Below are positions 5,451-35,863 of a stretch of 44,423 nt of DNA, one piece after another; positions within the stretch are counted from its first letter, which is position 1; every line of letters begins with the position of its first letter. The translations under genes were made by a program, and so were the position numbers. The stretch lies in IMG/VR virus record IMGVR_UViG_3300027736_000080, positions 1 through 44,423 of that record; one strand, written 5' to 3'. The notes under the pieces were generated by a model, which was not told the DNA's origin, searched no databases, and was given only the letters and a program-made list of their open reading frames with translations. Source of the DNA: a virus.

Positions 5451-6206
5451 ATGAAAATTGTCATAGTAACTGGTGGATTTGATCCACTACACTCAGGGCA
5501 TATTGCCTATTTTAATGCAGCAAAACAACTTGGTGACAAGTTAATAGTAGGATTGAACAGTGATGAATGGTTGGCCCGTAAAAAAGGTCAACCATTCATG
5601 CCTATTGATGAACGATTTGCAATAGTCAGCGCCATTGATGTGGTTGATGAAGTAATTGTTTATAACGACAATGACGGTTCTAGCATTGGCGCAATTAGAT
5701 TAGCAAAACTGCGTTATCCCAACAGCGAAATTATCTTTGCCAACGGCGGAGATAGAACTTCGGATAATATTCCAGAAATGGTATTTGATGATGTGGAGTT
5801 TGTGTTTGGTGTTGGAGGCAACAACAAAGCCAACTCTAGTTCGTGGATATTACAAGAGTGGAAAAACCCAAAAACAACTCGTGCCTGGGGATACTATCGT
5901 GTGTTACACGAAGTAGACGCTCATACCAAACTTAAAGAGCTCACGGTCATGCCCAAAACATGTTTGAGCATGCAACGCCATGATCAACGAGCAGAATTTT
6001 GGTTTGTGGCCGAAGGTGAAGCCACAGTATACACACTAGATTCCAGCACCGATCGAGACATTAAAGATCAATTGACAAAACATCAACACAGCTGGATTGA
6101 TCTAAACGAATGGCACCAACTGTGCAATGAGACTGACAAACCACTGCGATTGATTGAAATACAGTATGGGAACAACTGCGTAGAAGAGGATATAACAAGA
6201 CTATGA
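5451..6206 (+). CDS. HxGH nucleotidyltransferase fused to a sugar-isomerase-type cupin
   Basis: This is a 251-residue two-domain protein. Residues 1-135 are a cytidylyl/adenylyltransferase fold with the nucleotide-binding HSGH at 14-17 and the later SSSWIL segment at 129-134, most like the heptose-1-phosphate adenylyltransferase (RfaE domain II) and TagD groups. Residues 146-251 match the C-terminal cupin of type II mannose-6-phosphate isomerases: WGYYRVL, LSMQRHDQRAEFWFV, WHQLCN and IEIQYG. Together they suggest activation and processing of a phosphorylated sugar. It opens the glycan island. The exact sugar and nucleotide cannot be read. The stop overlaps the next start as ATGA. Confidence 0.82.
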   Translation: MKIVIVTGGFDPLHSGHIAYFNAAKQLGDKLIVGLNSDEWLARKKGQPFMPIDERFAIVSAIDVVDEVIVYNDNDGSSIGAIRLAKLRYPNSEIIFANGGDRTSDNIPEMVFDDVEFVFGVGGNNKANSSSWILQEWKNPKTTRAWGYYRVLHEVDAHTKLKELTVMPKTCLSMQRHDQRAEFWFVAEGEATVYTLDSSTDRDIKDQLTKHQHSWIDLNEWHQLCNETDKPLRLIEIQYGNNCVEEDITRL

Positions 6207-6889
6207 AACCAATTCCTGTTTTTGTAGGATATGATCCTAGAGAAGCCATAGCTTATCATACCTGTGTGAATTCGATCATACGCAACAGCAGTCGCCCAGT
6301 GGCCATTGTGCCAGTGGCGCTTAATCTATTCCGAGACTATGCTGAAACACATACCGACGGGTCAAACCATTTTATCTACACAAGATTTTTAGTACCGTAC
6401 TTGATGGAGTATCAAGGTTGGGCAATCTTTATTGATGGCGATATGATTGTGCGTGGAGATATTGCTGAACTTTGGGACCTTAAACAATATACCAAAGATG
6501 CCATGGTAGTCAAACATGACTACAAGACCCGAATGAAAGAAAAATATCTGGGCAGCCCAAACGAAGACTATCCACGTAAAAACTGGTCTAGTGTGATATT
6601 GTGGAATTGCAATGCCATACGCAATAGACAGCTTGATCCTGAGTTTGTACAAAAAAGCACAGGTGCTTTCTTGCATCGTTTTTCTTGGATAGATGACAGC
6701 CGCCTAGGAGAGTTGCCACCTGAATGGAACTGGCTGCCAGACGAATATGGCCCAAACCCGGATGCCAAACTGTTACATTACACGCTAGGAACTCCGTGTT
6801 TTGATGAATTCAAACATACTCCAATGAATGAACACTGGCATGCAGAACGCACCCTTACAGAATATTGCCAACAAAGGAACGATCAATGA
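6203..6889 (+). CDS. GT-A glycosyltransferase (GT8-like)
   Basis: This 228-residue protein has the features of a compact GT-A glycosyltransferase. The N-terminal strand VFVGYDPREAIAYHTCVNSI resembles the nucleotide-sugar-binding start of GT8-like enzymes. The metal-binding DGD motif is at 78-80 (AIFIDGDMIVRGDI). A late WSSVILWNCN segment and a C-terminal LLHYTLGTPCF fit acceptor-side conserved blocks. Metal-dependent transfer from a nucleotide sugar is expected; donor and acceptor are unknown. It is translationally coupled at both ends (ATGA overlaps) to the nucleotidyltransferase-cupin gene and to a KpsC/S-like gene. Confidence 0.82.
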   Translation: MKPIPVFVGYDPREAIAYHTCVNSIIRNSSRPVAIVPVALNLFRDYAETHTDGSNHFIYTRFLVPYLMEYQGWAIFIDGDMIVRGDIAELWDLKQYTKDAMVVKHDYKTRMKEKYLGSPNEDYPRKNWSSVILWNCNAIRNRQLDPEFVQKSTGAFLHRFSWIDDSRLGELPPEWNWLPDEYGPNPDAKLLHYTLGTPCFDEFKHTPMNEHWHAERTLTEYCQQRNDQ

Positions 6890-10004: not shown

Positions 10005-10645
10005 CCCATGATCCAATCATCTCTGATTTGATCTAGTCGGATCATACCCCATGATTCTAGCAACTTGATAGCAGCAAATTGTCCGTAATCTTTGCTGTAA
10101 GCGTCATGTGGTTTTTGTTCAATGACCATGATAGGCCGGCAACGTTTTACTGTTTCTTCGGCACCTTGCAACACACGATATTCATAGCCTTCGCAGTCAA
10201 TCTTCATGTAGTCTACACCTTGCAAATTCAAATTGTCAAGCCGTACAATTTGAACATCTCCGGTGCCCATACTGGCTGGATCTAAATGACTGTGACCACT
10301 GTTTTCTTCTGTGATAATCATGGTTCCCTTGCTGTCCTGATCTCCCAGTGCCATTGGGCTAATGAAAAAATTATCACCTGACACATTTTTTTCCAAGCAT
10401 TCTCTAAACAATCCCACTGGTTCAAATGCAATAACTTTGGCAAAATTTTTCACTAGATCTCGGCTCCATAGTCCCACATTGGCACCAATGTCCAAAGCTA
10501 TTCCTCGAGACTTGCAAAGCTCGATGCTTCGTTTGCGAACTGCCACTTGATATTCGGGCAGTAGACCTTTGTCCACGCTTTTTTTCAGCATCTTGGGAAA
10601 GTGTGTTTCAAAATCCGGAAAGTGCCATCCATAATGTTCAGCCAT
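9995..10645 (-). CDS. FkbM-family methyltransferase
   Basis: This 216-residue protein matches the FkbM methyltransferase family. Motif I reads ALDIGANVGLWS (about 50-61), followed by KVIAFEPVG and the family-typical VDYMKIDCEGYEYRVLQGA. FkbM-type enzymes methylate hydroxyls on sugars or polyketides, and they are frequent in surface-glycan clusters. The gene overlaps its upstream neighbour by 8 bases and the downstream methyltransferase by 10. It is the best-defined of the three methyltransferases in this operon. Confidence 0.88.
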   Translation of the reverse strand: MAEHYGWHFPDFETHFPKMLKKSVDKGLLPEYQVAVRKRSIELCKSRGIALDIGANVGLWSRDLVKNFAKVIAFEPVGLFRECLEKNVSGDNFFISPMALGDQDSKGTMIITEENSGHSHLDPASMGTGDVQIVRLDNLNLQGVDYMKIDCEGYEYRVLQGAEETVKRCRPIMVIEQKPHDAYSKDYGQFAAIKLLESWGMIRLDQIRDDWIMGWL

Positions 10646-11450
10646 TTATCATCTCCTGTGTCTGTTTCAGTATGCGATATGCCATACCATTTTTAAATTC
10701 ATCTATATGGAATTGTCCATATGCAAGATGGCAAAGCCAAGCATGGCGTTGATCATCTGTAGGAAACCATGGCTCTTCAATTTTAGAAAGATCATGATTG
10801 CTCATTGGGTTGGCAGCATTGCAAGGTGCCGTGGTAAACACTGGCACACCTGCGAGTATAGCTTCTGTGGCTGCGGTGCTGTTGAATGTGACCACAGCAT
10901 GTACATCGGCCAACCAATCTTCTGCACGTTGAGTTTTGCGATCCATTCTGCTGGCTGGCCTCTCTCGAATTTTTATTGGACGGTCAGTATACATACGAAT
11001 TTCGTTTGTGACATCTTTCAGCCAGTCATCCAATTCAAATCCATAAAATGCACAAGGTTTGTGATCGGGCGCAACAATTAATATATTGCGACTGTGTTGA
11101 TGATATGGTCTTATGTACAGTTCTAATCGCTGTAATCTATCAGCAGGGCGTGGTATAATCTGATCATGCTGTAGATCGTTGGGCACTATACGATGCCAAT
11201 GTTTCCATCCGTATGGGTTTTTGATGCTGGGACGATTGCCCAAGTAACCTGAATCCATGTACCAAAAGAATCGCTTGTCTTGCCAGCAGCGTTTGATTAT
11301 TTTGTGTTTCATGATACCACGCAGTATTAATGGATCCATACTGTCCTCGTAGTTCCATGTTTCTAGTGGGGTAGGTTCTAGTCCAGCACCGCGAGCAAAC
11401 ATATCAATGTACTCGTCCTCGCCATTTTTACTTAGACAGATCCAGTTCAT
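10638..11450 (-). CDS. KpsC/KpsS-like glycosyltransferase, copy 3
   Basis: This 270-residue protein is the minus-strand copy most like that at 6886-7860. Shared blocks are FFWYMDSGYLGN (61-72), WHRIVPNDLQ (85-94), YTDRPIKIRERP (154-165) and TFNSTAATEAILAGVPVF (188-205). It is shorter at the N-terminus than copy 1, with little of the first Rossmann-like domain, so it may be a minimal form or an N-terminally eroded duplicate. Start and stop overlap the neighbouring genes by a few bases. Role in glycan assembly is inferred; donor unknown. Confidence 0.75.
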   Translation of the reverse strand: MNWICLSKNGEDEYIDMFARGAGLEPTPLETWNYEDSMDPLILRGIMKHKIIKRCWQDKRFFWYMDSGYLGNRPSIKNPYGWKHWHRIVPNDLQHDQIIPRPADRLQRLELYIRPYHQHSRNILIVAPDHKPCAFYGFELDDWLKDVTNEIRMYTDRPIKIRERPASRMDRKTQRAEDWLADVHAVVTFNSTAATEAILAGVPVFTTAPCNAANPMSNHDLSKIEEPWFPTDDQRHAWLCHLAYGQFHIDEFKNGMAYRILKQTQEMING

Positions 11451-12250
11451 TGCCAGTATGCTTCGGTTCTATGGACTTTTAGGTCTGATTTTCTACTGCG
11501 CCCTTGATCTTTTCTGTCACCTTTGAGATGATCTAAATATGCACCCCAATCACTATTGATCAACGGATGTCCTTCGCCAGAGATCAAATGACTACTCCAG
11601 TCTAGTTCAACCAAGTTGCATTGTTTTCGCACAACATCAAACACAAAACTATCATGCCATTCTTCTAGTGTAAAAATTCCAGTTTCAGCATGATCATACA
11701 CATCTTGAAATCTTTGTAAAAATGCACCAACAGCAGGACTTGTTAATTTCATTGCATACAACCCACATTCAGTATACTTGCGGCTACGACCTAAAAAACA
11801 CAGATCAACTAAACTAGGGCACAGTCTGTCGAGATCGGACTGTGTGATAGCACTATGGCAAATGGTATCGGCGTCCATCCACAGCAACCAATCGCAAGGT
11901 GTGTTTTTTGCACAGTGGAAAATGCTGTAGACCTTGTGGGCAAATCGAACTGCGTCCCATTTAAACCCTTTGCCAGCATCCTTGCGTCGTGATCGGGCAG
12001 GATCATTACTGACATCACCATTGGCTTTGGGCACATTGCTCCAGGTAGTTTTGAATGCTACCAATTCAGGACTGGCCAATTCAAGATCGTGTATCAACAG
12101 ATTGGGAGCATGTTCTCGAACTGTACATTTTTCAGCATATACCACTAATTGCACATCTTTGGGCCATGTGCGTAAGAACGTTTGGATCATGCGCCTACCG
12201 TATTTTTCGTAACCGGTGGTATTAAAAGTGGTAACTACACAGTATTTCAT
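11447..12250 (-). CDS. GT-A-like glycosyltransferase
   Basis: This protein has 267 residues from the ATG at 12250; an upstream in-frame ATG at 12268 would add six residues. MKYCVVTTFNTTGYEKYG begins a nucleotide-sugar-binding fold, and the DxD motif sits at 126-128 (LLWMDADTICH). Lys and Arg residues are abundant at the C-terminus. It is the first gene of the five-gene minus-strand operon. A minus-strand CTAAATA lies only 4 bases before the ATG. Glycosyltransferase function is well supported by the DAD context; the sugar is unknown. Confidence 0.78.
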   Translation of the reverse strand: MKYCVVTTFNTTGYEKYGRRMIQTFLRTWPKDVQLVVYAEKCTVREHAPNLLIHDLELASPELVAFKTTWSNVPKANGDVSNDPARSRRKDAGKGFKWDAVRFAHKVYSIFHCAKNTPCDWLLWMDADTICHSAITQSDLDRLCPSLVDLCFLGRSRKYTECGLYAMKLTSPAVGAFLQRFQDVYDHAETGIFTLEEWHDSFVFDVVRKQCNLVELDWSSHLISGEGHPLINSDWGAYLDHLKGDRKDQGRSRKSDLKVHRTEAYWQ

Positions 12251-12254
12251 CAGA

Positions 12255-12262
12255 TATTTAGT
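12255..12262 (-). promoter_or_regulatory. Late-type octamer ACTAAATA for the minus-strand glycan operon
   Basis: On the minus strand this octamer ends 4 bases before the ATG at 12250. It overlaps the proposed GTG start of the divergent gene. Confidence 0.4.
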
Positions 12263-13115
12263 GAGCATAAAAACCCTATCTTATTTTCCCTCTCAATCAG
12301 CAGGGAACAGCCCTCCAGTGATGTTGGCCATACTGGCGGCATTGCATGCCAATGGATTGACCACTGTGGAAAACTCTTGGGATACAGATGCTGCAATCAT
12401 TTGGTCTGTGCTGTGGAACGGGCGCATGCGAGCCAATCAGCAGGTGTATGAGCATTATCGTCAATCAAATCGTCCAGTGATTATTGTGGAAGTTGGTGCA
12501 TTGCATCGTGGGCTGACTTGGAAAGTCTCGGTCAATCACGTGACGTCGCAAGGTTACTATGGGCACACACAAGATTTAGATCTAGATCGTCCAGCTAAAC
12601 TAGGTGTGAAATTGTCAACCAATGCCAATACCACCCCAAATATTGTAATAGCTGCACAGCACAGTCGCAGTTTACAAGTGCAAGAACTTGTGAGCCAAGA
12701 ATCTTGGGTATTAGATTGTATAAACAAAATTCAAGCCGCAAGCGATCGTCCTATTGTAGTAAGATCACATCCTAGATCAAGATTAAATTTACCGCAATTA
12801 CCTGCTGGTGTACGTTTAGAAATACCAAGACCTATACCCAATACCTATGATGGGTTTGATATGAATTACGCATGTCATTCGGTGGTCAATTACAACTCTG
12901 GACCAGGTATCCAAGCAGCCATAGCTGGCAGTAGACCAATAGTACATGAATCAAGTTTGGCAGCGCCGGTGTCAATAAACTGGACTGATATAGAGCAACC
13001 TTATGACATAGATAGACAGCAATGGCTAATTGAAATTTGTCATACTGAATACACCGTAGAAGAATTGAGAACAGGCTTATGGCTAAAAAGAATCGGGTCA
13101 TACCTGGGGCTGTAA
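12261..13115 (+). CDS. KpsC/KpsS-like glycosyltransferase, copy 4
   Basis: This protein has about 284 residues if it starts at the GTG at 12261. The start is uncertain: there is no Shine-Dalgarno, and the first in-frame ATG at 12321 would remove the SAGNSPPV segment that looks like part of the fold. It carries SDRPIVVRSHPRSR (161-174) and ACHSVVNYNSGPGIQAAIAG (204-223), the two KpsC/KpsS-type blocks. It is divergent from the minus operon and overlaps the next glycosyltransferase by 37 bases. It is the most diverged of the four copies, but keeps both motif blocks. Confidence 0.7.
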   Translation: MSIKTLSYFPSQSAGNSPPVMLAILAALHANGLTTVENSWDTDAAIIWSVLWNGRMRANQQVYEHYRQSNRPVIIVEVGALHRGLTWKVSVNHVTSQGYYGHTQDLDLDRPAKLGVKLSTNANTTPNIVIAAQHSRSLQVQELVSQESWVLDCINKIQAASDRPIVVRSHPRSRLNLPQLPAGVRLEIPRPIPNTYDGFDMNYACHSVVNYNSGPGIQAAIAGSRPIVHESSLAAPVSINWTDIEQPYDIDRQQWLIEICHTEYTVEELRTGLWLKRIGSYLGL

Positions 13116-13819
13116 CTGATTGTGCCTGTGTAATACACAGCACCGGATATGACTGGCGCTATGTAGAAAACTTGTACAGTATGTTGACCAGAGCCCTGCC
13201 TGGCGGTATACGTTTTCATGTGTACACCGAACACGATCGATCAGTACCGCCACATATGATCAAACACATCTTGACCGAATGGCCGGGTATTGCAGGGCCT
13301 AAAAAGTCCTGGTGGTACAAAATGCAAATGTTTAATCCTGAACATCACTCGGGTAATTTGCTTTATCTGGACCTAGACACAGTAGTAGTACGTGACTTGT
13401 CGTGGATATCAGCTCTTGACACACGATATTTTTGGGCCATACGAGATTTTAGATATTTACAAAATCCTCACCATACAGGATTCAACAGCAGTGTCATGTG
13501 GTGGAATGTCAGTCATTTTTCTTGGATATGGGAACAGTTTTCCAAAAGTGACATCACACAGTTGATCAAAACCAATCCAGGTGATCAAGATTACATCACA
13601 AAAGTTATTGATATCAATCAACGTAGATTTTTTAAAGATCAAATGTTTGAAAGTTTTAGATGGCAGTGCCTGGATGGTGGGTATAATTTTCAGCGTCGAC
13701 AACACAACTCTCCCGGCAGCGGAGTTAAAATTGCACCTGATACCTCTGTGGTGATATTTCATGGGGCGCCTAAACCTCATCAGATATCAGACACAACAAT
13801 TACACAATTATGGAGATAA
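13079..13819 (+). CDS. GT-A-like glycosyltransferase
   Basis: This 246-residue protein has a DLD metal motif at 98-100 in a LLYLDLDTVVVRDL context, typical of GT8/GT24-like enzymes. The N-terminal CACVIHSTGYDWRYVENLY fits a nucleotide-sugar-binding start, and PGDQDYITKVI followed by FHGAPKPH is a usual C-terminal acceptor and metal-binding block. It overlaps the KpsC/S-like gene upstream by 37 bases and closes the glycan island. Its stop overlaps the ribosome site region of the following structural-type gene. Donor and acceptor sugars are unknown. Confidence 0.82.
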   Translation: MAKKNRVIPGAVTDCACVIHSTGYDWRYVENLYSMLTRALPGGIRFHVYTEHDRSVPPHMIKHILTEWPGIAGPKKSWWYKMQMFNPEHHSGNLLYLDLDTVVVRDLSWISALDTRYFWAIRDFRYLQNPHHTGFNSSVMWWNVSHFSWIWEQFSKSDITQLIKTNPGDQDYITKVIDINQRRFFKDQMFESFRWQCLDGGYNFQRRQHNSPGSGVKIAPDTSVVIFHGAPKPHQISDTTITQLWR

Positions 13820-25629: not shown

Positions 25630-26700
25630 ATGCATAAATTCAACCATTTACATAATATACTCTATAGAAATCGAACAATAGGTGGTAATACACAAATGTG
25701 GGCTTATCGAGGTATTACAGCTTGGTATTCTAAAAATAACCAATTTGATCTGTTGGAATTTAACAATACAGTTGATACTGTGGTAATCAATGATTACAAT
25801 GCCAACTCAAAATTAACTGCTTATCGTGCCCACGGACAATTGTTAGAAGGTCATATCGATTACTGGTTTCCACTAGATCAAGCCCAAGACTGTGTGGTTT
25901 TTGCTGGATACAAAAATTATACTCAATATGCAAACAATGTAACAAGTATAGGTTTTGATTTTTTTGATTTCATGGTGCATGAGATATTTTCTGAGCCTTG
26001 TTTTTACAACGAAGTAAATCGTCAAGGAGTTGAACATGCTGAATATGATGTGTGCATTCCAGTGGGCTATTATAGAACGCATAGATATTTGTTTTTACAA
26101 CATCTAGTAGACACTCAAAAAAATCTCAAAATAGTGACTGATAGCAGACAAACTATGTTACCAACTGAATTTACTTTTGATAAGTTGAATATGGAACCTT
26201 ATCTTAATAAAATTGGAGCATCCAAGTTTGAATGTCACACCACACAACAAAGTTTTTATAAATTAGCCAGCATGGCGTTGATGCAAATGCCTCATAAACT
26301 TATGCATGCAGCTTGTAGAGTCAATGTAGCGTTAGAAACCACAGTGCGAGATACTGATCAACCATATCTCACTGAAAAAACTTACAAAATTCTAGCACAA
26401 GCCAGACCTTTTGTGATCTATGGAGATCGCAATACACTAAAAAAACTAAAGTCAAAGGGATTTAAAACATTTGATAAATTCTGTGACGAAAGTTATGATC
26501 AGGAACCTGATCTGAATATACGTGCAAAGAAAGCAGTGGATGCAGTATGTCAATTGGTAGAGGCTTGCAAAACTAGCGCCGCTGAGATCAATGAGATCTG
26601 CAGGTTCAATCAACATAACTATTTCAGTCAAGAAAGATTGCATAATGAGTTGGCAGACTTTGGAAAATTGTGTTTAGATAAAGTGTTTATTGGGAGTTAA
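25630..26700 (+). CDS. Exostosin/GT47-like phage protein
   Basis: This 356-residue protein has a C-terminal block (about 230-285) with VNVALETTVRDTDQPYLTEK, then ARPFVIYGDRNTLKKLKSKG and DESYDQEPD. The order TEKTYKxLAxxRPFxIxG, GFKTF, DESYD fits the C-terminal half of exostosin-like glycosyltransferases often seen in phages and bacteria. The N-terminal half is not recognisable. It lies four bases after the primase stop and ends 1 base before the helicase start, inside the replication operon. Glycosyltransferase activity is likely but not proven by a catalytic motif. Confidence 0.6.
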   Translation: MHKFNHLHNILYRNRTIGGNTQMWAYRGITAWYSKNNQFDLLEFNNTVDTVVINDYNANSKLTAYRAHGQLLEGHIDYWFPLDQAQDCVVFAGYKNYTQYANNVTSIGFDFFDFMVHEIFSEPCFYNEVNRQGVEHAEYDVCIPVGYYRTHRYLFLQHLVDTQKNLKIVTDSRQTMLPTEFTFDKLNMEPYLNKIGASKFECHTTQQSFYKLASMALMQMPHKLMHAACRVNVALETTVRDTDQPYLTEKTYKILAQARPFVIYGDRNTLKKLKSKGFKTFDKFCDESYDQEPDLNIRAKKAVDAVCQLVEACKTSAAEINEICRFNQHNYFSQERLHNELADFGKLCLDKVFIGS

Positions 26701-26701
26701 A

Positions 26702-28147
26702 TTGTTAAAAGATTACGGAATTGAAGTACAAAAATTATTCTTGGAAATGATGTTGGAGGATGCTGCTAGCTATGTGCGTATCCAAAACATTTACAATCCA
26801 GAAAATTTTGATAGAAGTCTACGACCTGCGGCTGTGTTTATCAAAGAACACAGCGAAAAGCACAAGACATTGCCGGACTTGACTCAGATTGCAGCTACCA
26901 CTGGAATCAAATTGCAATCAGTTCCAGACTTGAATGAAGGGCACTATGACTGGTTCATGGAAGAGTTTGAAGCATTCACACGCAGGCAAGAACTAGAACG
27001 TGCCATATTAAAGTCAGCAGATCTGCTAGAAAAAGGCGAATACGGCCCAGTGGAAAAGCTGATCAAAGATGCGGTACAAATCAGCTTGACCAAGGACATG
27101 GGCACAGATTACTTTGCCAATCCCAGCGAACGTATAAACAAATACTTTAACTCAGGCGGCCAAGTCAGTACAGGGTGGCCACAACTGGATAGATTGTTGT
27201 ATGGTGGTTTCAGTCGCGGCGAACTAAACATCTTTGCCGGAGGATCGGGTTCAGGCAAGAGCTTGGTCATGATGAACATTGCATTAAATTGGTTGCAACA
27301 AGGATTGAGTGGAGTGTATGTCACACTAGAATTGAGTGAAGATCTAACCAGCTTACGTACAGATGCCATGCTCACAAACATGAGCACCAAGGACATACGT
27401 AGAGACATTGACACCACAGAGCTCAAAGTCAAAATGATGGCCAAGAAGTCCGGCAATTATCAAGTCAAAGGTTTGCCAGCACAAAGCAACATCAATGACA
27501 TCAGATCATACTTGAAAGAGTATCAGATACAAACAGGCAAAAAAGTGGACTTTGTGATGATAGATTATTTGGATTTGTTGATGCCAATCAGCGTCAAAGT
27601 CAATCCCAATGATCAGTTTATCAAAGACAAATATGTCAGTGAAGAACTACGTAACTTGGCCAAAGAACTGCAAATATTAATGGTAACTGCTAGTCAGTTG
27701 AATCGTAGTGCAGTGGAAGAAGTAGAATTTGATCACAGTCACATTGCCGGTGGTATCAGTAAGATCAACACAGCAGACAATGTGTTTGGTATTTTTACCA
27801 GCAGATCCATGAAAGAACGCGGCAAGTATCAGATACAATGTATGAAAAGTCGTAGTTCAACTGGTGTGGGTCAGAAGATTGATTTGGAATACAACATTGA
27901 AACCATGCGTATTACAGACGAAGGTGGTGATGAAGGAACTGGTTATAACAAACCACAAACATCAATCATGGATTCAATCAAGGCCAAGAGTCAAGTTGTT
28001 GTCAACGACAACGCTGCGTGGCAAGCACCCACAGGAGGCACACATGCTTGGGATAAACCTGTGGTCAACCACGGTGAAGTTGCCAAAGTTGTTGGTGCAG
28101 TAGAAAGCACCAAACTCAAACAATTGCTGGGAAATATAAAGAAATAA
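26702..28147 (+). CDS. 41: gp41-type replicative DNA helicase
   Basis: This 481-residue DnaB-family helicase unwinds DNA at the fork with the gp61 primase. Walker A GGSGSGKS is at about 180-187 of the protein begun at TTG 26702, Walker B is VDFVMIDYLDLL, and QLNRSAVEE is the later conserved block. The start is TTG with the strong ribosome site GGGAG six bases upstream; no ATG lies nearby in frame. An upstream TTG at 26690 would bury that site. The C-terminus is disordered. Its stop (28145-28147) abuts the stop of the convergent fibre gene exactly. Confidence 0.93.
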   Translation: MLKDYGIEVQKLFLEMMLEDAASYVRIQNIYNPENFDRSLRPAAVFIKEHSEKHKTLPDLTQIAATTGIKLQSVPDLNEGHYDWFMEEFEAFTRRQELERAILKSADLLEKGEYGPVEKLIKDAVQISLTKDMGTDYFANPSERINKYFNSGGQVSTGWPQLDRLLYGGFSRGELNIFAGGSGSGKSLVMMNIALNWLQQGLSGVYVTLELSEDLTSLRTDAMLTNMSTKDIRRDIDTTELKVKMMAKKSGNYQVKGLPAQSNINDIRSYLKEYQIQTGKKVDFVMIDYLDLLMPISVKVNPNDQFIKDKYVSEELRNLAKELQILMVTASQLNRSAVEEVEFDHSHIAGGISKINTADNVFGIFTSRSMKERGKYQIQCMKSRSSTGVGQKIDLEYNIETMRITDEGGDEGTGYNKPQTSIMDSIKAKSQVVVNDNAAWQAPTGGTHAWDKPVVNHGEVAKVVGAVESTKLKQLLGNIKK

Positions 28148-29402: not shown

Positions 29403-29410
29403 GCTAAATA
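29403..29410 (+). promoter_or_regulatory. Late-type octamer GCTAAATA for the 29432 operon
   Basis: The octamer ends 21 bases before the ATG at 29432, mirroring the minus-strand octamer at 29381-29388 at exactly the same distance from its gene. Confidence 0.65.
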
Positions 29411-29431: not shown

Positions 29432-29680
29432 ATGCAAAAGAAAACACGCAGCATACTAGAAGAACTAGACAGTCTGTACATCGAGCGAGATCGTCGGTTG
29501 GTGATAGAAAATCGCGCGAGCAACGTGATAGCCAATGCCATTAGGTTGTTGGAGCAGATTGAATCAGAATTTGATGCTGAAACAGCAGAGAATCTCACTA
29601 GAAAATTCCTCAATGCCATACGAACAAAAAACGCTGGTAAATTTTCTCGATCAGTAAGGAAAACAGATGCAAATTCATGA
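29432..29680 (+). CDS. Small helical protein of unknown function
   Basis: This 82-residue, highly charged, almost certainly helical protein reads MQKKTRSILEELDSLYIERD and NRASNVIANAIRLLEQIE, with a basic C-terminus. I recall very similar small proteins in T4-like cyanophages, where their role is unknown. A late-type octamer is upstream, and the gene overlaps the next by 14 bases, so it belongs to the late block ending in the nucleotidyltransferase-ligase fusion. No catalytic motif. Confidence 0.78.
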   Translation: MQKKTRSILEELDSLYIERDRRLVIENRASNVIANAIRLLEQIESEFDAETAENLTRKFLNAIRTKNAGKFSRSVRKTDANS

Positions 29681-30152
29681 ACTGACTAGAAAATCTCGCG
29701 TCAATGAAGATGCTGCGCCAAACACGTCATTGATGGTTAATCGGGCTGCACAGAACATGCAACGGCAGTGGTCTCAGCAGGTGTCTCAGGCCCTGGCAGC
29801 AGATGCAGTCACTGACACTGCGCGACTCAGTCCACAGTCTAAAACTTCATTAAAAAAAGCATTGAACTCAATAGTGGCACAGAGTCAATTCCTTGGCGGT
29901 ATGGATTTTACAAATTTAAGCCAAATGGTATCTCAAACAGATGACAATGGTGCCTATACTCCAGTCTACATCAATCAAGCTGATACCATAATGAATCAAT
30001 TGTATTCAGGTATACGTCAGTTGGGTAATCTTGACGTGGAAAAAGTTGACACTAGAGAATTGGCTGAATTTCGAATAATTGCACAAGCTGCATATGAAGC
30101 AGGAGTTTTGATGCAAACTCACCCCAAACAGCAAGCAGGCACAGCACCATGA
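29667..30152 (+). CDS. Unknown protein encoded before the ligase-like fusion
   Basis: This 161-residue helical protein with many Gln and Asn residues (NRAAQNMQRQWSQQVSQALA, KTSLKKALNSIVAQS, QADTIMNQLYSGIRQLGN) ends in a flexible KQQAGTAP tail. No enzyme motif is visible. The ATG has the ribosome site AGGA a few bases upstream inside the preceding gene, and its stop overlaps the next start as ATGA. Tight coupling to the 652-residue nucleotidyltransferase-ligase protein suggests they act together or are both virion components. Confidence 0.7.
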   Translation: MQIHELTRKSRVNEDAAPNTSLMVNRAAQNMQRQWSQQVSQALAADAVTDTARLSPQSKTSLKKALNSIVAQSQFLGGMDFTNLSQMVSQTDDNGAYTPVYINQADTIMNQLYSGIRQLGNLDVEKVDTRELAEFRIIAQAAYEAGVLMQTHPKQQAGTAP

Positions 30153-32107
30153 GATATCTATTAGAAGGCGGCAATGTATTCAAAGGGCCCGGGGGCGAGC
30201 CACTCACACAGCGTATTAATCGTCAAGATGTACCTGCCACTATCCAATGGATAGAACAAGTCACTGGATTAGATTTCAGCAGCGAGATAGGAGAAGATGG
30301 CATCCCCACACGCTGGCTTGGGTCAACCGGCAAAGCCCCCTCATCGGGAGACCTGGATCTTGCTGTGGATCTGAATGAAGTTTCAAAAGAACAATTGGCT
30401 GGGATACTTTCTCAATTTGTACAAAGCCAAGGACTAGATCCTAGAGAATGGGTCAAGAAGGGTGGGGAAGTACATTTAAAAACACCCATTGCTGGTGATG
30501 CCAATCGTGGATTTGTGCAAACTGACTTCATGTTCTTTCCCAATCTGGATTGGGGACAGTTCTTTTATGGCGGAGGCACAGACTCAGCTTACAAAGGCAT
30601 GAATCGCAACGTGCTGATGAGCAGCATAGCTAAAAAACTAGGTCTCAAAGTAGGTGCCAATGGCATGTTCTCTAGAACCACAAATCAACTGGTACAAGGC
30701 GGCATGGATCCGGACTATGTAGCCGGTGTGTTGTTGGGGCAAGGTGCCACTCGTGCTAATCTCAAGAATGTAGAATCAATCTATGCTGCACTGGCCAACG
30801 ATCCTGACCGTGATACCAAGCTGGCCGATTTCCGTGGTTACTTGGCTGGCGAAGGCTTGCAAGAGCCAGACCAAACAGTAAAAGAAAGTGATGCATATTT
30901 CCTAGCTAGATTACGAGATCGTATTGTGAATCGTGGATATGTAGCACTAGTTGAACATCAACGCCCAGTGATTGAAGCTGCAGAAGCTGGAGTTGGCGGC
31001 CGTGCCAAAGGTATAGAGCATCTTGAAGATTATGTATTTCGCCAAGGCGCACCAGGCATACAGACGGCCCTGGACATTGTCAAACACGCTACAGAAGCAC
31101 CACAACAGACCACCACTGCTAAATGGGACGGAAAGCCTGCATTGATATTTGGCCGCAAACCGGACACTGGTGAATTTGTACTTACTGACGGGTCTGGATT
31201 TGATGCCAAAGGCTATGACGGCTTGGCTACCAGTCCGCAGATGATGGCTGATATACAAAATAATAGAGGCAGCAACAGAGACGATCTTATACAGATATAT
31301 GCTACATTGTTTCCAGTACTAGAAGCTGCGCTGCCACCAAACTTCCGTGGCTACGTCAAAGGTGATTTGTTGTTCATGCAAACACCACCTGTGATTGCTG
31401 GCAACTATGTGTTCAAACCCAACACCATTGAATATCGCATACCAGTTCGTAGTGCAATGGGACAACGTATTTCTGGCAATCCAGAAACTGGCGCGGCTCC
31501 GGCACAGATAGGCATCGCCATACATTCAATGTATGCAGATCGTGGAGAGCCACGACAGCCACTGCGAGGCATAACATTTACACCTGTTCCGGGACTGTTG
31601 CTAGAAAAACCTGCTACTCCTAAAGTGTTAGAAACTGAGACTAACTTAGAAAAGCAACTTAAACAGATCATACGCACACAAGGTCCAGCTATGAGAACAC
31701 TGTTCAACCCTGTTGAATTACGAGCTCAACAGATCACTGATCTGTTCAAGCTGGCAGTGGATTTTATCAACACCAAAGTGGGTTCTCCATTGCAATCTGC
31801 ACAACAGTTATTGTCTGAGTTTGGCCCGTGGTTGCAGTCACGTGTGAGCCCGCGCAAGTACGCTAATATAGTAGAGTATCTCAACAGTCCTACCAGCAAT
31901 GCACAAGCTCTAGCAGCGTCATTCGAAGCATTTGAATTGTTGCATGCCTTGAAAATGCATTTAAAAACTCAAGCCGATACAGCCAATCCTGGCGGCGAAG
32001 GCTGGGTGATGGCCACTCCTGCAGGCTACAGCAAGCTGGTCAGTAGGTTTGATCCCACTGCCTTTGCTGCTCAAAATCGTGCCCAAAACAATCCTCAACC
32101 CCAGTGA
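30149..32107 (+). CDS. Pol-beta-type nucleotidyltransferase fused to a ligase-like domain
   Basis: This is a 652-residue protein with two catalytic-type domains. Residues about 50-130 carry a minimal nucleotidyltransferase signature: Gly58-Ser59, Asp68-x-Asp70 in GDLDLAVD, and a third acid Asp126 in QTDFMFF. Residues about 287-435 look like a covalent nucleotidyltransferase (RNA/DNA ligase fold): motif I KWDG with Lys325, KGDLLFM (404-410) like motif III, IEYRIPV (428-434) like motif IV, and VFKP. The C-terminal 170 residues are helical and unassigned. The parts suggest nucleotide addition plus sealing, such as RNA end repair. Related ligase-like proteins occur in cyanophages; activity has not been shown. 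Confidence 0.72.
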   Translation: MRYLLEGGNVFKGPGGEPLTQRINRQDVPATIQWIEQVTGLDFSSEIGEDGIPTRWLGSTGKAPSSGDLDLAVDLNEVSKEQLAGILSQFVQSQGLDPREWVKKGGEVHLKTPIAGDANRGFVQTDFMFFPNLDWGQFFYGGGTDSAYKGMNRNVLMSSIAKKLGLKVGANGMFSRTTNQLVQGGMDPDYVAGVLLGQGATRANLKNVESIYAALANDPDRDTKLADFRGYLAGEGLQEPDQTVKESDAYFLARLRDRIVNRGYVALVEHQRPVIEAAEAGVGGRAKGIEHLEDYVFRQGAPGIQTALDIVKHATEAPQQTTTAKWDGKPALIFGRKPDTGEFVLTDGSGFDAKGYDGLATSPQMMADIQNNRGSNRDDLIQIYATLFPVLEAALPPNFRGYVKGDLLFMQTPPVIAGNYVFKPNTIEYRIPVRSAMGQRISGNPETGAAPAQIGIAIHSMYADRGEPRQPLRGITFTPVPGLLLEKPATPKVLETETNLEKQLKQIIRTQGPAMRTLFNPVELRAQQITDLFKLAVDFINTKVGSPLQSAQQLLSEFGPWLQSRVSPRKYANIVEYLNSPTSNAQALAASFEAFELLHALKMHLKTQADTANPGGEGWVMATPAGYSKLVSRFDPTAFAAQNRAQNNPQPQ

Positions 32108-32120
32108 TTTTTGCCAATTG

Positions 32121-32128
32121 TATAAATA
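32121..32128 (+). promoter_or_regulatory. Perfect T4 late promoter TATAAATA
   Basis: Exact match to the T4 late consensus, 40 bases before the ATG at 32169, with the ribosome site AAGGA in the leader. The best late promoter in the window. Confidence 0.85.
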
Positions 32129-33350: not shown

Positions 33351-33826
33351 TGAACGAAAAAAAGTTTGAACTTTTGCTAACAAAAGAATTGAAAAAAAGT
33401 TCCGCCAACACCATTTTGAGTGACGACAACGGTGCCAACTACTTTGTGTTTGGCAAGTACGATATAACTCAAACCGCCGACGGATTCCTGGTCAGTGACT
33501 GGCACAGCCCAATACATTGTTTTTCCACCAAACGCATTGCACTCAGCTGGTGTGTGGCAGATAAATTTCAACGATACAACTTGTCCAACAACATAATGAT
33601 ACTGGATCGCAGGCAACAGGTGCTCAAAACAGACATCTTTTGCAGCCGAAAAACAGCCGAAGTCAGCGGCCATGAATCGTTTTACGAAATAGTAAATACT
33701 AAGATGCAACCCAAGATAGATATGCTTGCATCAGTGACCACCGAATTGGAAAAATGTATAAATTCGGCTAAATATCTACAGATTAGAGGATTCCATAATG
33801 AAACTGCAAGAACTATCGGCTCCTAA
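33347..33826 (+). CDS. Unknown late protein
   Basis: This 159-residue protein begins at the ATG overlapping the preceding stop. Segments such as FELLLTKELKKSSANTILSD, YFVFGKYDITQTADGFLVSD and TKRIALSWCVADKFQRYNLS read as a mixed alpha/beta domain, followed by a C-terminal helix (MLASVTTELEKCINSAKYLQ). It overlaps the following gene by 29 bases. Similar proteins appear in aquatic T4-like phages without known function. No motif supports a specific role. Confidence 0.7.
   Translation: MMNEKKFELLLTKELKKSSANTILSDDNGANYFVFGKYDITQTADGFLVSDWHSPIHCFSTKRIALSWCVADKFQRYNLSNNIMILDRRQQVLKTDIFCSRKTAEVSGHESFYEIVNTKMQPKIDMLASVTTELEKCINSAKYLQIRGFHNETARTIGS
33767..33774 (+). promoter_or_regulatory. Late-type octamer GCTAAATA
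   Basis: The octamer ends 23 bases before the ATG at 33798, with the ribosome site AGAGGA in the leader. Confidence 0.6.
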
Positions 33827-34754
33827 GCCATCAAAACAAATCGCCAAAGTATTCGAAAGTTATTTTGGCTCACGCATCAAATTTGACCGTTTAGACGCAC
33901 GCCAAACCCGAGTGATGTTGAACAAAGTACGTGGCGTGTTGGGCGAACATCGTAGCACCACTGCACGTCATACCAGTGAACAAAATCCACACTATTTGAA
34001 ACTGGTCATGATGGAACAAGCCCTGGCCAGCCGCCTGCGCGAAGAAGTTGTTCCCGGTGGCGGCGGCGGAGCACCCAATAATGGACCAGGTACCACCGGT
34101 GCTGCTCCTGGACAAACTATCCAACAAGCACCACAACCAGGACAAACACCGACAGCGCCGACAGCAACTGCTCAAGATCCTAAACTAACTGCTGCATTGG
34201 AAAAACAAAAATCTAATCAGACGCTGACAAACGCTGAGAAAGCACTAATAGCTGGTGCTGCAATGGCCATGGCCGAAAGTCGTTTGCGTAGAGAGTATCG
34301 CATATTGAAAGAATCTGAGATTCAACAGGCTCAAGTAGTATTGGCTGCACAAGACCTAGTGGACAAGATGCAAGACATGGTAGAAGAAGTCAGTGAATTG
34401 CAATTCAAAGACTTGCCTGCCTTGGTTGAAAGCATCAAGAATCAAGTTGGCGTGGACCAAGCCATGCAATTCAACACTGACGCCACTGGCGCATTGGCTG
34501 GCTTGCTGCAAAATCTACAAGGCGCCAAACAACAACTGGAAGCCGCGCTGGGTGTAGTAACAGGCACAGGCGGTCCAGACATGAGCGCCATTGCCAATGC
34601 TGGCGCTGCTGCTGGAGACCTAGGAGCTGCTGCTGGTGATATGGGCGCTGCTGCTGGTGACTTAGGATTGGACGCACCACCTCCGGGTGAAGGTGATCTC
34701 GAAGCTGCTGCTGAACCTCCAGCTGGAGCAGCGTTAGGTCGAGCACGTAGATAA
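33798..34754 (+). CDS. Probable virion or prohead-core protein
   Basis: This 318-residue protein has an N-terminal helical part (about 1-80), a Gly/Pro/Gln/Thr linker (84-125), a long helical region (EIQQAQVVLAAQDLVDKMQD, KDLPALVESIKN) and a C-terminal repeat GAAAGD with Pro/Ala/Glu tail. This layout of coiled coil plus flexible linkers fits scaffold or core proteins of T4-like phages, although no single T4 homologue is recognised. A late-type octamer and ribosome site precede it. It shares one base with the next gene. Confidence 0.65.
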   Translation: MKLQELSAPKPSKQIAKVFESYFGSRIKFDRLDARQTRVMLNKVRGVLGEHRSTTARHTSEQNPHYLKLVMMEQALASRLREEVVPGGGGGAPNNGPGTTGAAPGQTIQQAPQPGQTPTAPTATAQDPKLTAALEKQKSNQTLTNAEKALIAGAAMAMAESRLRREYRILKESEIQQAQVVLAAQDLVDKMQDMVEEVSELQFKDLPALVESIKNQVGVDQAMQFNTDATGALAGLLQNLQGAKQQLEAALGVVTGTGGPDMSAIANAGAAAGDLGAAAGDMGAAAGDLGLDAPPPGEGDLEAAAEPPAGAALGRARR

Positions 34755-35166: not shown

Positions 35167-35553
35167 ATGGCCTACTCAGACAAAGTAATTGATCACTACG
35201 AGCATCCACGCAATGTGGGCAGCTTTGCCAAAGACGATGACAGCGTCGGAACTGGTATGGTGGGCGCACCCGCTTGTGGTGATGTGATGAAATTGCAAAT
35301 AAAGGTAGTAGATGGAATCATCCAAGACGCCAAGTTTAAAACGTATGGTTGCGGCTCAGCGATTGCGTCAAGTTCGCTTGTTACTGAATGGGTCAAAGGA
35401 CGCACACTTGAGCAGGCGGCAGCGATCAAAAATAGCGAAATTGCTTCTGAGCTTGCCCTCCCTCCAGTTAAGATTCATTGTTCAATACTTGCAGAAGATG
35501 CGATCAAAGCGGCAGTAGCAGATTATCGTAGTAGGCATGATCTCGTTCACTGA
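35167..35553 (+). CDS. iscU: IscU-type Fe-S cluster scaffold
   Basis: This 128-residue protein contains all key residues of IscU, which holds nascent [2Fe-2S] clusters. Cys37 with Asp39 lies in PACGDVMKLQIK, Cys62 in YGCGSAIASSS, and His104-Cys105 in VKIHCSILAEDA. The LPPVK motif (98-102) is the binding site of the chaperone HscA in bacterial IscU, so host chaperones could act on it. Length is that of bacterial IscU. It has its own early promoter and overlaps iscA by 17 bases. Confidence 0.95.
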   Translation: MAYSDKVIDHYEHPRNVGSFAKDDDSVGTGMVGAPACGDVMKLQIKVVDGIIQDAKFKTYGCGSAIASSSLVTEWVKGRTLEQAAAIKNSEIASELALPPVKIHCSILAEDAIKAAVADYRSRHDLVH

Positions 35554-35863
35554 AACAGCTGATAAAAAAGTCCAACGACTATTGGAGAAACGCGGCGGAA
35601 TTGGTATAAAATTGGGCGTGAAAACCACTGGTTGCTCAGGACTTGCTTATGTGTTAGAATATATAGATGCTTATCCACCAGATCTTGACAGCGTGATCAA
35701 CTATGCACAATCAAAATTTGCTGTGATAGTAGACAAAAAACACGAAGTATACCTTGACGGCATGACTATAGATTATGTACGTCAAGGGCTCAACGAGGGA
35801 TTCGAATTCCGCAATCCCAATGAACGCGATCGCTGTGGTTGCGGAGAAAGTTTTAGAGTTTAA
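35537..35863 (+). CDS. iscA: IscA/HesB-type Fe-S carrier
   Basis: This 108-residue A-type carrier has the three cysteines of the family: Cys33 in TTGCSGLAY, and Cys100 and Cys102 in the C-terminal CGCGESF. The middle region DAYPPDLD contains no cysteine. IscA transfers Fe-S clusters or iron to client proteins. It overlaps iscU, so the two make a minimal scaffold-carrier pair. No desulfurase (IscS), ferredoxin or HscA/HscB is in the window; sulfur must come from the host or elsewhere in the genome. Confidence 0.95.
   Translation: MISFTETADKKVQRLLEKRGGIGIKLGVKTTGCSGLAYVLEYIDAYPPDLDSVINYAQSKFAVIVDKKHEVYLDGMTIDYVRQGLNEGFEFRNPNERDRCGCGESFRV

Follow-up and report, generated by a model that had tools for sequence, protein, structure and literature searches.

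A 652-residue protein that joins a polymerase-X-like nucleotidyltransferase to a DUF6267 ligase-like domain is encoded at positions 30149 to 32107, plus strand, of the IMG/VR virus record IMGVR_UViG_3300027736_000080. The whole stretch analysed, positions 1 to 44,423 of that record, is referred to here as the window. It is a fragment of the genome of a T4-like phage, as indicated by genes for a single-stranded DNA-binding protein, UvsX, a UvsW-type helicase, a primase and DnaB; ribonucleotide reductase genes were also recognised by eye in the list of open reading frames. We propose that the fusion protein is a packaged two-step end-repair enzyme, made late and cut by the prohead protease, which would add nucleotides and seal breaks on entry into the cell. 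The probability of this reading is put at about 0.4. The sequence-level support for it consists of both sets of catalytic motifs and their conservation, split and fused versions in other phages, conserved gene order, a late-type promoter and a leader pattern. An earlier note on this DNA, made from its letters alone, had described such a two-domain protein among late virion genes and suggested tRNA repair as an example of its function. The two enzyme halves and the head-gene location stood up to the analysis; tRNA repair as stated did not.

The fusion gene is a single intact frame, with its ATG at 30149 and a stop codon that ends at 32107, exactly as the earlier note had placed it. Its start shares a 4-nt ATGA overlap with the preceding gene. 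Close relatives are encoded on more than 500 IMG/VR contigs, which rules out a chance reading as well as an assembly artefact. The residues that the earlier note had named are essentially invariant across 80 aligned sequences. Relatives were absent from the plasmids searched, and the cellular genomes gave one 5.6-kb contig of a metagenome-assembled genome, which is probably phage.

The N-terminal half contains the following features, for which model confidence is given as the predicted local distance difference test score (pLDDT).

30149 to 32107, plus strand: 652-aa fusion protein, polymerase-X-like nucleotidyltransferase and DUF6267 ligase-like domain.
30167 to 30868, plus strand: predicted nucleotidyltransferase domain, about aa 7–240 (AF2 pLDDT about 80–94 over most of aa 21–240).
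30320 to 30358, plus strand: G58-S59 ... G67-D68-L-D70, predicted nucleotide- and metal-binding signature.
30524 to 30526, plus strand: D126, predicted third catalytic acid (QTDF).
30875 to 31012, plus strand: linker, about aa 243–288, variable in length and of low confidence (pLDDT below 50 over most of it).

No convincing match to this half was found in Pfam or PHROGs, and sequence searches of the PDB with the single sequence and with profiles of either half gave nothing meaningful. The evidence comes from the predicted structure and from conservation. The AlphaFold model of the fusion protein, built from 62 sequences, is confident over about aa 21–240. Comparison of this part with the PDB by Foldseek gave 294 matches, of which the top 50 all belong to the DNA polymerase X family (Pol lambda, TdT, Pol mu, Pol beta and Thermus PolX). 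Their probabilities are 0.97–1.00 at E-values of 0.005 or worse, with Pol lambda at E 5e-3 and probability 1.00. Among these top 50 the nearest folds are thus polymerases and not the CCA-adding enzymes with which a comparison had been suggested. D68 and D70 are located on a predicted strand, residues 68–74, and D126 on a separate strand, residues 122–130, which is the arrangement of Pol-beta palms (DSSP of the model). The residues G8, F11, G58-S59, G67-D68-x-D70, Q124-x-D126, W135, K149-G150 and R153 are invariant in an alignment of 35 members that includes four jumbo-phage homologues at about 30% identity; H109 is also conserved in close relatives. The family reaches Agrobacterium phage Atu_ph07, Sinorhizobium phage Phosso, PA5oct-like Pseudomonas phages, Lak megaphages and Flavobacterium immuto phages, and the GS, GD.D and Q.D elements are retained in the Lak and Flavobacterium homologues. 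The predicted fold and the invariant G58-S59, D68, D70 and D126 support the initial assignment of the N-terminal half to the Pol-beta nucleotidyltransferase superfamily, with DNA polymerase X as its nearest relative in predicted fold. The PolX profile PF14792 matched nothing in nine related records, and the control genomes also all remained below the cut-off of that model. Identity with RlaP (PF10127) was considered and rejected, as neither the window protein nor ten fusion-phage records gave a match to the profile; a separate RlaP is encoded elsewhere in the Atu_ph07 and Lak-B5 genomes.

The sole Pfam match of the 652-aa protein is DUF6267 (PF19782), which covers aa 289–635 with an E-value of 1.7e-25 and 90.7 bits (curated cut-off 27). 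The profiles of ATP-dependent DNA ligases (PF01068) and of RNA_ligase (PF09414) did not match the protein. The features of the C-terminal half are listed below; pTM is the predicted template modelling score.

31004 to 32104, plus strand: DUF6267 ligase-like domain, aa 286–652 (AF2 domain model pLDDT 86.5, pTM 0.82; matches in BFVD).
31121 to 31132, plus strand: motif I, K325-W-D-G, with the predicted nucleotidylated lysine; invariant in 62 sequences.
31361 to 31372, plus strand: motif III, G405-D406-L-L, with Asp where most ligases have Glu; G405, D406 and L407 invariant.
31418 to 31435, plus strand: P424-N-T-I-E-Y429 signature, common to the jumbo-phage partner ligases.
31640 to 31984, plus strand: all-helical insert, about aa 498–612, between the motif III region and motif IV (DSSP of models).
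31997 to 32008, plus strand: motif IV, E617-G-W-V; present in all DUF6267 proteins examined and in the jumbo-phage partner ligases.
32033 to 32047, plus strand: motif V, K629-L-V-S-R633; K629, V631 and R633 invariant.

The alignment of 62 DUF6267 sequences spans two very different phage groups, and motif IV was misaligned between them by MAFFT. The E617 block was therefore paired by eye with the EGFV of the cyanophage proteins, whose motifs IV and V read EGFV..KLVDR. D406 occupies motif III in all aligned members, and the exchange of Glu for Asp is conservative. K325 directly follows a strand in the secondary structure of the model. Because the protein ends 23 residues past K629, the ligase half lacks a C-terminal OB domain. 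The best PDB fold matches of the DUF6267 model are mostly ligases, among them DNA ligase I, an archaeal RNA ligase and the adenylyltransferase of a fungal tRNA ligase. In BFVD the matches are cyanophage DUF6267 proteins, followed by the PA5oct protein A0A4Y5JUK8 (446 aa, E 6e-5, probability 1.00); an 'RNA ligase' of Atu_ph07 (324 aa, E 0.03) is a further match. KWDG and KGDLLFM, which had been read as ligase signatures, correspond to motif I and to the D406 of motif III. A third one, IEYRIPV, was rejected as motif IV in favour of E617-GWV, since it belongs to the invariant PNTxxY element; motifs IV and V had been missed. The motifs, together with weak but consistent fold matches, support the reading of DUF6267 as a putative divergent covalent nucleotidyltransferase or ligase.

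Comparison with other phages suggests how the two halves belong together. DUF6267 relatives (PHROG 455) occur in 302 phage records, mostly of T4-like cyanophages. The cyanophage proteins are devoid of the Pol-X-like domain and adjoin a HIGH-type nucleotidyltransferase (T4-GC190): in S-SM1 the T4-GC190 gene overlaps the DUF6267-like T4-GC71 gene, and in S-PM2 DUF6267 is fused to the HIGH type. In the jumbo phages Atu_ph07, Phosso and PA5oct, the nucleotidyltransferase and a ligase are separate neighbouring genes. The partner ligase lies just upstream, two small genes away in PA5oct (EST35_0228), overlapping in Atu_ph07 (AUZ94878) and alike in Phosso. The PA5oct and Atu_ph07 matches in BFVD are presumably these upstream partner genes, because length and phage agree. 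KxDG, the PN...Y element, EGxV and the K..D element are common to the three partner ligases, two of which match the RNA_ligase profile weakly and below threshold (E 0.002 and 0.085). The combined signature KxDG, PNx(I/L/V)xY and EGx(V/I/A)...K..(D/N/S)(R/K) occurs in the DUF6267 proteins as well as in the partners from PA5oct and Phosso; the Atu_ph07 partner has its first two elements. It is missing from all nine loci of classical phage DNA or RNA ligases that were compared. On account of this common signature and the BFVD matches, the fusion protein and the jumbo-phage gene pair look like two forms of one module. In the Flavobacterium phage immuto, the nucleotidyltransferase homologue is directly followed by a 907-aa protein (locus L263, 6905–9628), in which two zincin-like motifs accompany a HIGH nucleotidyltransferase and a second Pol-beta-like domain.

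The fusion gene had been described as lying among late virion genes, and the genes on both sides agree with this. The operon and its surroundings are organised as follows.

26690 to 28147, plus strand: DnaB-type replicative helicase, conserved upstream neighbour (phrog_19, E 5.7e-70).
29404 to 29410, plus strand: CTAAATA, late-promoter-like -10 box heading the operon.
29432 to 29680, plus strand: first gene of the operon, phrog_11854 virion structural protein (head and packaging), E 1.2e-14.
29667 to 30152, plus strand: gene for a 161-aa protein with N-terminus MQIHELTRKSRVNE, overlapping the fusion gene; only a few relatives have it.
32121 to 32128, plus strand: TATAAATA, T4-type late -10 box just 3′ of the fusion gene, predicted to serve the next gene.
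33798 to 34754, plus strand: phrog_14154 virion structural protein (head and packaging), E 4.8e-10.

More than 30 fusion loci keep the order primase, DnaB, phrog_11854, the module, phrog_14154 and exonuclease within the reach of each contig, and jumbo phages keep part of it. The phrog_11854 gene retains its position in the relatives as well as in PA5oct, Atu_ph07 and locus L235, and phrog_14154 is also located downstream of the PA5oct nucleotidyltransferase. In nearly all relatives, the operon is preceded by CTAAATA or ATAAATA, about 20–28 nt ahead of its first gene. Late-type boxes in the window precede structural genes and IscU; none was found before ssb, UvsX, UvsW, primase, DnaB, exonuclease, nrdA or nrdB. 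The strict sequence TATAAATA was rejected as the promoter of the fusion operon, upstream of which it is absent. It occurs once in the window, with 1.6 copies expected by chance, and about 60 related loci have it in the same position, where it heads a conserved 135-aa gene (dn135) that gave no PHROG match. In one relative (locus L074, 5992–8292) the fusion gene continues into dn135 as a single 766-aa frame, which may be a real fusion or an assembly error.

The beginning of the protein is consistent with its transport into the head.

30149 to 30166, plus strand: candidate leader peptide MRYLLE, with a predicted prohead-protease site L-L-E|GGNVFK between aa 6 and 7.

In 144 relatives, 25 distinct leaders of 4–9 aa were found, and all of them end in L/I-x-E right before GGNVFK. 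The P3 position is L in 24 leaders and I in one, P2 is variable, and P1 and P1′ are E and G, respectively, in all 25. Jumbo-phage homologues that have no leader begin with M-GG or M-SG. In L257, a homologue with 31% identity, the leader is unrelated and about 17 aa long, and it also ends in L-T-E|GG. Capsid targeting and processing by the prohead protease gp21 have been described for T4 (PMC9026906), and the leaders of the fusion proteins end in the L/I-x-E|G pattern of the gp21 sites. Three of the ten fusion-phage records (G001, G002 and G008) contain a gene for a T4-type prohead protease. The PA5oct nucleotidyltransferase homologue is annotated as 'structural protein, ESI-MS/MS'. The T4-GC190 protein, the neighbour of DUF6267 in cyanophages, was detected in S-SM1 virions by Sullivan et al. 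in 2010 (PMC3037559); it begins with MKKFSAFLNE|A, much like the T4 capsid-targeting sequence. The suggestion of the earlier note that the protein is packaged has thus gained a case of its own: the leader, the operon with head genes, the late-type box and the virion data of relatives make packaging of the fusion protein plausible.

We propose that the N-terminal polymerase-X-like domain would extend a 3′ end by one or a few nucleotides, and that the C-terminal KxDG domain would adenylate itself at Lys325, transfer the AMP to a 5′ phosphate and seal the break. The fusion protein would be made late, and its short N-terminal leader would direct it to the prohead. A T4-type prohead protease would then cleave it after Glu6, and the enzyme would be carried in the head and delivered with the genome. 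An enzyme delivered in this way would be active from the onset of infection, ahead of any expression of phage genes. Catalysis, the order of the steps, the substrate and packaging are what we infer from the features above. The idea of addition followed by sealing, put forward in the earlier note, is a weaker point, argued only from guilt by association.

Several observations weigh against this proposal. The Foldseek E-values of the nucleotidyltransferase model against the PDB all exceed 0.001, and the ligase matches of the DUF6267 model are weak, with E-values of 0.085 or worse and probabilities of at most 0.66. The ligase half has no C-terminal OB domain with motif VI, which is present in DNA ligases. 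Profile-profile comparison of DUF6267 with the jumbo-phage partner ligases aligned short motif stretches that were not significant by probability; the motif-signature test and the BFVD fold match were used instead because these alignments were no longer than the motifs. Seven of eight fusion-phage records already contain a classical DNA ligase, so a second one needs a reason. As to packaging, the virion detections concern proteins of other phages and, in the cyanophage, a different partner, and the PA5oct partner ligase is not flagged as structural. L/I-x-E-A/G/S sites near N-termini were not above background in one relative (G003), and a looser leader pattern was only marginally enriched (p = 0.05).

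The repair of RNA is a doubtful alternative, in which tRNAs cut by host anticodon nucleases would regain their lost nucleotides through the nucleotidyltransferase and be resealed by the ligase; a similar role has been proposed for pairs of RlaP and RNA ligases. It would agree with the missing OB domain and the weak RNA_ligase matches of the jumbo-phage partners, and also with the separate DNA ligase of the fusion phages. A classical RNA ligase in these phages was considered and rejected: the PF09414 matches of G002 and G005 map to the DNA ligase, and the same motif, KLDGVR, occurs in the G009 frame. Polymerases of family X are not strictly limited to DNA. Two large relatives carry 34 and 24 tRNAs, but a third one of 212 kb has none, and no tRNA gene was found in the window or near the locus in relatives. 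Together with the polymerase X fold of the nucleotidyltransferase, this leaves tRNA repair unsupported in the form first suggested. The RlaP profile gave no match, and the immediate neighbourhood of the gene showed no end-healing partner, kinases and phosphatases not having been searched genome-wide. T4 produces its tRNA-repair enzymes during infection and not as late head proteins. The 34 tRNAs are located at 160504–171726 of a 225-kb record (L124 record G003, loci L236–L247), which also contains a tmRNA gene; one of these tRNAs reads amber (CTA) and is called tRNA-Pyl by ARAGORN.

A gap-filling and sealing enzyme of replication or recombination, active in the infected cell and not packaged, appears unlikely. 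The deep synteny with primase, DnaB helicase and exonuclease in fusion and jumbo phages would fit such a role. No classical DNA or RNA ligase was found in the T4-like cyanophages covered, S-SM1 and S-PM2 among them, or in the Melnitz phage (records L081, L082, L083 and L255; S-WAM1 was not searched with PF01068), so DUF6267 may be the only ligase of these phages, judging from their gene content. The late-type promoter, the operon with head proteins, the leader pattern and the virion detection of a homologue or partner point instead to a packaged protein. It is improbable that the protein is an injected effector that nucleotidylates host proteins, like T4 Alt and the polyvalent proteins, instead of repairing nucleic acids. 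Phage polyvalent proteins do contain Pol-beta nucleotidyltransferases predicted to modify proteins (PMC5512222), and the immuto homologue is paired with the 907-aa protein described above. The partner, however, is a ligase-type enzyme in the fusion phages and in three jumbo-phage lineages, and the nearest folds are DNA polymerases. That a structural head protein merely retains relic enzyme domains is very improbable: its neighbours encode structural proteins and the PA5oct homologue is called structural, but both active sites are near-invariant over very large divergence. For the packaged end-repair enzyme, DNA is slightly preferred as the substrate because of the family-X fold, the synteny with replication genes and the advantage of carriage in the head. 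RNA is kept open because of the lack of an OB domain, the tRNA-rich relatives and the DNA ligase that the fusion phages already have. Gapped or broken incoming phage DNA, rather than RNA, is our guess, only slightly better than even.

Pairs of polymerases and ligases are known in kind from editing, nonhomologous end joining and viral base-excision enzymes. Nucleotidyltransferase-ligase repair pairs are likewise known: RlaP is an RNA-ligase-associated Pol-beta nucleotidyltransferase of large phages (PMC7824862). The fusion protein resembles RlaP in its link to a ligase but does not match its profile. With DNA polymerase X (Pol lambda, Pol mu, TdT and Pol beta) it has the GS..GD.D element and the third Asp in common, without a match at the sequence level and without room for the lyase or HhH domains before the palm. 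KxDG, EGxV and KxVxR are common to DUF6267, the T4 RNA ligases and the ATP-dependent DNA ligases, and weak fold matches connect them. DUF6267 differs from these ligases in the Asp of motif III, the PNxIxY element, the helical insert and the missing OB domain. From the other members of DUF6267 (PF19782, PHROG 455), the C-terminal half is set apart by its fusion to a Pol-X-like domain. The likeness to T4 internal head proteins and Alt consists of the L/I-x-E|G end of the leader, the late-type promoter and the head-gene context (PMC9026906). The leader of the T4 internal proteins has 10 aa, whereas that of the fusion-protein family is different and only 4–9 aa long. DUF6267 was not named in the literature searched. 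The apparent novelties are the reading of DUF6267 as a ligase, the nucleotidyltransferase family, the physical joining of the two and the arguments for transport in the head.

We tentatively suggest, as a broader and rather uncertain generalisation, that many large phages, namely freshwater T4 relatives, marine cyanophages and jumbo phages, carry a head-packaged 'polymerase plus ligase' repair kit with a new ligase subfamily, which would mend the genome on its arrival, or host RNA, while infection is only minutes old. Some large DNA viruses have repair enzymes associated with their virions, and such a kit would be the equivalent in bacteriophages; packaging would allow genome or RNA repair to start before any phage gene is expressed. 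The analysis proposes a testable function for DUF6267, a function-unknown family of hundreds of cyanophage genomes. It also brings out a second family, of nucleotidyltransferases so far without a name, which occurs in jumbo, Lak and freshwater phages and is tied to DUF6267 by fusions and neighbouring genes. A ligase subfamily without an OB domain could serve as a reagent.

Further genes of the window were recognised by eye. Two overlapping genes at 35167–35863 encode IscU- and IscA-like iron-sulfur assembly proteins and are present in most relatives whose contigs reach there. A HIGH-type sugar nucleotidyltransferase-like gene and several glycosyltransferase-like genes are located at 5451–6889 and 10638–13819.

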